From Sporomusa termitida (GTDB lineage: Bacteria > Bacillota > Negativicutes > Sporomusales > Sporomusaceae), in NCBI RefSeq assembly GCF_007641255.1, contig NZ_CP036259.1:1426001-1490000 (forward strand): a DNA stretch of 64,000 nucleotides, written 5' to 3'. Every line of letters starts with the position of its first letter. The first letter of the stretch is position 1. Of this stretch, positions 3,385-10,852 are shown piece by piece. The notes beneath the pieces were generated by a model, which was not told the DNA's origin, made no database searches, and was given only the letters and a program-made list of their open reading frames with translations. The translations under genes were made by a program, and so were the position numbers.

Positions 3385-3441
3385 AATATTAATTATTTAT
3401 AAATAATTAATATTGACAAACTCTAGTAATTAAGGTAGTAT
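3385..3441 (+). promoter_or_regulatory. Sigma-A promoter overlapped by a perfect 30-bp palindrome
   Basis: TTGACA (3413-3418), a 17-bp spacer and TAGTAT (3436-3441) form a near-consensus promoter. Its -35 box overlaps the end of a perfect AT-only palindrome of 30 bp at 3385-3414, centred between 3399 and 3400. Such a long exact dyad strongly suggests a dimeric repressor site, Fur/PerR-like in its AT content, though no known consensus fits exactly. The RNA at 3448 begins just downstream. Confidence 0.65.
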
Positions 3442-3447
3442 TTAGTC

Positions 3448-3529
3448 AAGAAAGCAAATGCCGCTTTCTCCTCTCCTTTTGAAGCATGCATTTTCATGTA
3501 AGCCCTTTGCTGTTGCAGAGGGTTTTTTT
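3448..3529 (+). ncRNA. Candidate regulatory sRNA with CU-rich stretch
   Basis: This is a predicted transcript of about 82 nt from the promoter at 3413-3441 to an intrinsic terminator. The terminator stem is CCCTTTGC-TGTT-GCAGAGGG (3503-3522) followed by seven T. The body contains a GAAAGC/GCTTTC hairpin and the unpaired CU-rich run TCTCCTCTCCTTTT (about 3467-3480). That run is complementary to AGGAG-type ribosome sites, as in sRNAs that block translation starts. No ORF with a ribosome site is present. Size, C/U-rich seed and repressor-like dyad recall the iron-sparing FsrA RNA of Bacillus, but that parallel is inference. Confidence 0.55.
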
Positions 3530-3647: not shown

Positions 3648-3767
3648 ATGGGATTTGGATTTGGTGGCGGTTGTGGTGGCCGCGGTGGTGGCAGCTGGAT
3701 TATTATTATCATTATCATTATCCTGCTGTTCTGCTGCTTTGAGGACGATTGCAGTCCAACCTGCTGA
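3648..3767 (+). CDS. Gly-rich poly-Ile single-span membrane peptide, copy A (39 aa)
   Basis: ATG at 3648 follows AAAGGAGG at ideal spacing. The product has a Gly/Phe head (MGFGFGGGCGGRGGGSW), eight consecutive Ile followed by LLFCCF as the membrane span, and an acidic Cys tail (EDDCSPTC). It lacks a cleavable signal and should sit in the inner membrane or a spore membrane. Copy B (3996) is nearly identical in sequence and upstream region, so this is a recent tandem duplication of a complete transcription unit with its own terminator (3845). The composition resembles YjcZ-type sporulation peptides; function unknown. Confidence 0.8.
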   Translation: MGFGFGGGCGGRGGGSWIIIIIIIILLFCCFEDDCSPTC

Positions 3768-3995: not shown

Positions 3996-4118
3996 ATGGG
4001 ATTCGGATTTGGTGGCGGTGGCGGCGGCGGCCGTGGCGGCAGCAGTTGGATCATCATAATAATTATTATTATCCTGTTATTTTGTTCATTTGACAATGAT
4101 TGCAGCCCAACCTGTTAA
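3996..4118 (+). CDS. Gly-rich poly-Ile single-span membrane peptide, copy B (40 aa)
   Basis: ATG at 3996 follows AAAGGAGG. The sequence is MGFGFGGGGGGGRGGSSW, then eight Ile, LLFCSF and DNDCSPTC. Compared with copy A, one head Cys is replaced by Gly and one span Cys by Ser, while the C-terminal DCSPTC is unchanged. The final two Cys are therefore the conserved ones. It has its own promoter-like boxes and terminator. A longer reading frame opens upstream at 3840, but only this part has a ribosome site and a paralogue. Confidence 0.8.
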   Translation: MGFGFGGGGGGGRGGSSWIIIIIIIILLFCSFDNDCSPTC

Positions 4119-10743: not shown

Positions 10744-10763
10744 GGAATAAATGAACCTTTAAG

Positions 10764-10852
10764 ACGGTCCAGAGAGGCCGGCAAGGTACGCAATGACAGT
10801 CTCTTTATGCGGACTTTACAGCCTCTCGCCTATGCGAGAGGCTTTTGTATTG
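10764..10852 (+). promoter_or_regulatory. PyrR-binding attenuator
   Basis: The leader holds GGTCCAGAGAGGCC (about 10766-10779), matching the PyrR-binding loop consensus UCCAGAGAGGCU. It is followed by an intrinsic terminator with a 9-bp stem, GCCTCTCGC-CTAT-GCGAGAGGC (10821-10842), and TTTTGT. The GAGAGGC of the PyrR site is also complementary to GCCTCTC, the 5' side of the terminator, so an antiterminator can form when PyrR is absent. When UMP is high, PyrR binds and transcription stops before the permease. pyrR itself is not in the window. Confidence 0.88.

Follow-up and report, generated by a model that had tools for sequence, protein, structure and literature searches.

Does the short unit that starts at position 3385 of the analysed window (64,000 nt of the Sporomusa termitida genome, here G000) encode a regulatory RNA of its own, and if so, what would control it and which messages would it act on? 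The reading we favour, at a probability of roughly 0.68, is a stand-alone trans-acting Sporomusa sRNA, most likely repressed by Fur, whose linker would block ribosome sites and which plausibly serves to spare iron. The unit comprises the following features (window positions):

3385..3414, no strand assigned: perfect 30-bp AT palindrome, ending within the -35 box.
3398..3418, no strand assigned: Fur-box-like site TATAAATAATTAATATTGACA (7.6 bits), formed by the right half of the palindrome and the -35 box; same offset in four of the five other sRNA promoters.
3413..3418, plus strand: -35 box TTGACA, with ATTGACAA invariant in six homologues.
3436..3441, plus strand: -10 box TAGTAT, separated from TTGACA by a 17-bp spacer.
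3448..3529, plus strand: predicted sRNA of about 82 nt, its start placed by the spacing from the -10 box; fold z -3.8, with covariance-model homologues in five other Sporomusa genomes.
3449..3469, plus strand: 5' stem-loop AGAAAGC...GCUUUCU with AAUGCC in the loop; the homologues have GGCA-N4-UGCC instead.
3467..3480, plus strand: CU-rich stretch UCUCCUCUCCUUUU, unpaired from 3470, with conserved CUCU-YCU, complementary to AGGAG ribosome sites.
3500..3529, plus strand: intrinsic terminator with an 11-pair stem (3500-3525) and a T run to 3529.

A sequence-only reading of this DNA had proposed an exact AT palindrome over the -35 box of a TTGACA-17-TAGTAT promoter, followed by roughly 82 nt that lack an ORF and end in a canonical terminator. 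All of this was borne out: both boxes are present, the palindrome shares its final two bases with the first two of TTGACA, the terminator has its 11-pair stem and T run, and the ATG frames inside the 82-nt RNA are either one codon long or still open past the terminator. Transcription would start near 3448, as judged from promoter spacing. A fold of -27.5 kcal/mol (z = -3.8) is predicted for the 82-nt RNA; it beats 200 of 200 shuffles and leaves the CU-rich stretch unpaired.

Homologues had to be sought with covariance models, since BLAST with the RNA body alone as query found none, the relatives being too diverged. A plain DNA search yielded promoter-level matches only, and glycerate kinase and DUF169, used as synteny anchors, did not lead to the RNA in relatives. 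A first, structure-based model from the single sequence gave two same-genus places with matching layout, its other matches (coding DNA, tRNA, unrelated terminators) being discarded on inspection. A second covariance model, spanning promoter and RNA and trained on G000, G004 and G003, identified six clear copies (G000, G001, G003, G004, G006 and G008; E 2e-9 to 7e-22), of which G006 (7.5e-13), G008 (1.5e-10) and G001 (2e-9) lie outside the model, while the other three are included by construction. Being near-identical throughout, G001 and G008 were counted as one lineage. Weak matches of this second model (L127-L133) were discarded on inspection, and neither the incomplete G002 nor the same-order genomes outside Sporomusa gave a convincing match; S. 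ovata, G005 and S. acidovorans had no copy at the sensitivity searched. A match in G016 (L003) was rejected as a copy, as it shares the Fur-boxed promoter and not the RNA. There, within L003 1500-1680, a strong Fur-box promoter, GATAATCATTATTGACAAACTCT, nearly identical to the sRNA promoter, precedes what may be an ORF of 32 aa, with a good ribosome site.

The six-copy alignment has its invariant columns mainly at three places: ATTGACAA, the AAUGCC element and its surroundings (G006 reads AAUGCU), and the linker CUCU-YCU. Each of the six RNAs keeps this linker, and every fold leaves most of it unpaired. Five copies form their 5' stem from GGCA-N4-UGCC, allowing for G-U variants, whereas G000 uses another stem; for 7 of the 15 pairs predicted, at least one copy has both partners changed. 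Since the terminators cannot be aligned column by column, the consensus fold receives a slightly unfavourable covariation term; the terminators are divergent in sequence, yet each of the six folds when its RNA is folded alone. Over the copies the predicted RNA measures about 82-92 nt, with one hairpin plus terminator in most. These comparisons give good support to the earlier proposal of an sRNA candidate that carries a CU-rich seed, the unit being conserved in the genus and stand-alone at two loci, with its seed conserved and unpaired.

Which regulator would act on this promoter was addressed with a Fur-box matrix built from feoA upstream regions of the same family, which carry classical Fur boxes (TGATAATGATTATCA). 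Its top sites in 1.66 Mb of S. termitida include positions upstream of TonB-dependent receptors, an ExbB and a PepSY protein, and therefore the matrix describes Fur. In five of the six sRNA copies the best promoter match falls at one shared offset covering the -35 box (10.9, 7.6, 7.3, 6.4 and 6.4 bits); the G003 promoter reaches only -4.6 bits at that offset. Control TTGACA promoters in the fetched DNA score at or below -1.2 bits, save a copy of the S. termitida sRNA promoter and G016, which was pulled in by similarity; the -35 box itself overlaps the matrix and contributes part of every score. Sites reaching 7.6 bits number 142 in the 1.66 Mb of S. termitida, so that the G000 match alone is unremarkable and takes its weight from the position shared among copies. 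Fur control of the sRNA promoter is, on these matrix scores, likely. Of the Fur-type control suggested earlier, the feoA-matrix site at its fixed offset in five of six copies upholds the idea, whereas the match is weak in S. termitida and the palindrome is no textbook Fur box.

The palindrome, with its halves AATATTAATTATTTA and TAAATAATTAATATT, ranks third in length among the perfect palindromes in the 1.66 Mb of S. termitida scanned and is the only AT-only one with arms longer than 12; the other long ones, two of which exceed it, have G+C-rich cores and the look of terminator hairpins. An identical 28-bp core also lies over the -35 box of a doxX gene in G009, from a related genus, within a perfect 36-bp palindrome (L002 1493-1530), and a nitroreductase and an HxlR regulator are encoded nearby. 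This suggests a redox operator and, together with the weak S. termitida Fur box, lends some credit to an explanation in which a real trans-acting sRNA answers to another regulator (PerR, Zur or an unrelated repressor that reads the palindrome) and serves a purpose other than iron sparing. We regard this as rather unlikely. Among 380 genomes of the class and genome contigs, the exact palindrome was found in G000 and G009 only, and therefore it is not the conserved feature; all five other sRNA promoters lack it, and four of them keep the Fur-like site. Moreover, doxX orthologues in G008 and G001 (L045/L046) carry promoter Fur-matrix matches of 11.1 and 13.2 bits in place of the palindrome, so doxX may belong to the same regulon as the sRNA. 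The pattern fits a palindrome that is an added or altered operator in a Fur-family regulon; the extended perfect form in S. termitida probably strengthens the operator or supplies a second one, which is the least certain part of the explanation.

Could the unit instead be an attenuated 5' leader of the tiny Gly-rich gene at 3648, which lies on the same strand 120 nt away? A separate CATACTATA-type promoter stands before the Gly-rich gene and recurs at its tandem copy, and the sRNA homologues occur at another locus without this gene. Only in G000 does the unit sit between glycerate kinase and tiny Gly-rich genes; in G001, G003, G004, G006 and G008 it lies near a 4HBT thioesterase gene (a search with the thioesterase retrieved S. 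malonica, S. silvacetica, Sporomusa sp. KB1, S. acidovorans and S. ovata). No gene downstream accompanies the sRNA throughout the six copies, the ORFs immediately downstream in S. malonica are on the opposite strand, and all six copies have a strong terminator, which makes a leader very improbable. Between lineages the unit is 58-71% identical, and the adjacent 100 bp on each side 35-53%, mostly about 40%. The unit has persisted at two loci between diverging flanks, and it is therefore a gene of its own. With its own promoter and terminator, no ORF and conservation independent of neighbours, kept in at least six Sporomusa species, the predicted sRNA is by these comparisons stand-alone and not a leader.

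Equally slim are the prospects of a small-protein gene, in which the AUG of the AAUGCC element would open a frame through the seed, encoding an MPxPLLL-like peptide in all copies. The AUG is at an equivalent position in all six, and AAAGG stands a few bases upstream in G004 and G006. Against this, the frame is still open on reaching the terminator in five of the six (G006 alone closes it, after 15 aa), and coding is therefore unlikely; G000 has no convincing ribosome site for this AUG, and no complete peptide frame is common to the six. A functionless chance arrangement is barely credible, for although AT-rich intergenic DNA yields many promoter- and terminator-like matches, the whole unit is conserved in six genomes and at two loci amid diverged flanks.

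In the favoured reading, a strong vegetative promoter would drive a stand-alone transcript of some 82-92 nt in which a 5' stem-loop is followed by the unpaired CU-rich linker and then by the intrinsic terminator. Iron-loaded Fur, bound across the -35 box, would most likely repress this promoter, so that the RNA would appear under iron scarcity. The linker, complementary to AG-rich ribosome sites, would then pair with those of chosen mRNAs and block their translation, plausibly to save iron. Iron sparing is, by analogy with FsrA and IsrR (PMC9410917), the most economical reading of Fur control combined with a seed directed at ribosome sites.

The target screen covered 1,515 genes predicted with a simple gene caller in 1.66 Mb of the S. 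termitida genome. Ferredoxin-type genes showed lower duplex energy with the seed (p = 3e-5), but the reversed seed performed nearly as well (p = 5e-4; difference p = 0.16), and the bias therefore reflects strong ribosome sites in ferredoxin-type genes rather than proven targeting. Owing to this control, Fe-S target enrichment was dropped as evidence; target prediction, proposed earlier as a check, thus returned a ferredoxin-type bias and nothing Fe-S-specific. The complement of the 14-mer seed occurs 25+26 times in the genome versus 22+20 for the control, which is no clear enrichment. An etfB-like gene and a ferredoxin-containing etfA-like gene at G000:C1:281950-282750 (L218) are both among the top predicted pairings. 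These etf-ferredoxin genes are the best target candidates of the pairing model.

Iron-sparing sRNAs recur across unrelated bacteria without a common sequence, and FsrA is similar in size to the Sporomusa sRNA. In Bacillus subtilis, Fur-repressed FsrA binds Shine-Dalgarno sequences through a C-rich motif and uses FbpABC (PMC9410917). The Sporomusa sRNA resembles it in its unpaired CU-rich stretch directed toward ribosome sites, its intrinsic terminator and the likely Fur box at its promoter, but differs in genomic place and bacterial class, and Rfam matches up to E 10 for three sRNA copies include no FsrA. The likeness to FsrA drawn in the sequence-only reading hence holds as an analogy and not as family membership: the RNA is probably a Fur-controlled trans sRNA that is functionally FsrA-like without belonging to the FsrA family. 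Staphylococcus IsrR has a Fur-boxed promoter, single-stranded C-rich regions, conservation within one genus and a poorly conserved terminator; it is 174 nt long and comprises three stem-loops and three C-rich regions (PMC9410917). The Sporomusa sRNA is comparable in its Fur-like promoter site (in five of six copies), its single-stranded CU-rich region, the one-genus conservation and the divergent terminator, but with 82-92 nt, one main stem-loop and one CU-rich linker it falls outside IsrR. With RyhB, PrrF and MrsI, the likeness lies in the proposed role, an iron-regulated sRNA that lowers iron-protein synthesis, and the difference in the lack of a family match.

The literature searched gave no description of such an RNA in Sporomusa and cmscan against Rfam 15 nothing at the gathering threshold at the sRNA locus, in agreement with the earlier view that it is undescribed. 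For S. sphaeroides KIAC, dRNA-seq and Term-seq are published (PRJNA1214563, CP181154; PMC12456013), and the main text of that paper mentions no sRNA of this kind. If the favoured reading is true, this would be a further, apparently independent iron-sparing sRNA and a concrete regulator, in the diderm Negativicutes and in acetogens, whose CO2 fixation relies on iron-sulfur enzymes. More tentatively, and with somewhat less than even odds, the RNA may represent an undescribed Fur-controlled Negativicutes family that tunes the iron-rich energy metabolism of acetogens (e.g., ferredoxin-type proteins, Etf) at the ribosome site, the palindrome being an extra operator shared with doxX of the related genus.

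Elsewhere in the window, the tiny proteins encoded at 956-1114, 3648-3767 and 3996-4118 have a Gly-rich start, a poly-Ile/Val stretch and an acidic end and match no Pfam family; two of the three genes are a tandem pair preceded by CATACTATA, which resembles sporulation promoters. The sole Rfam match within the 64,000 nt is a PyrR binding site at 10752-10850.
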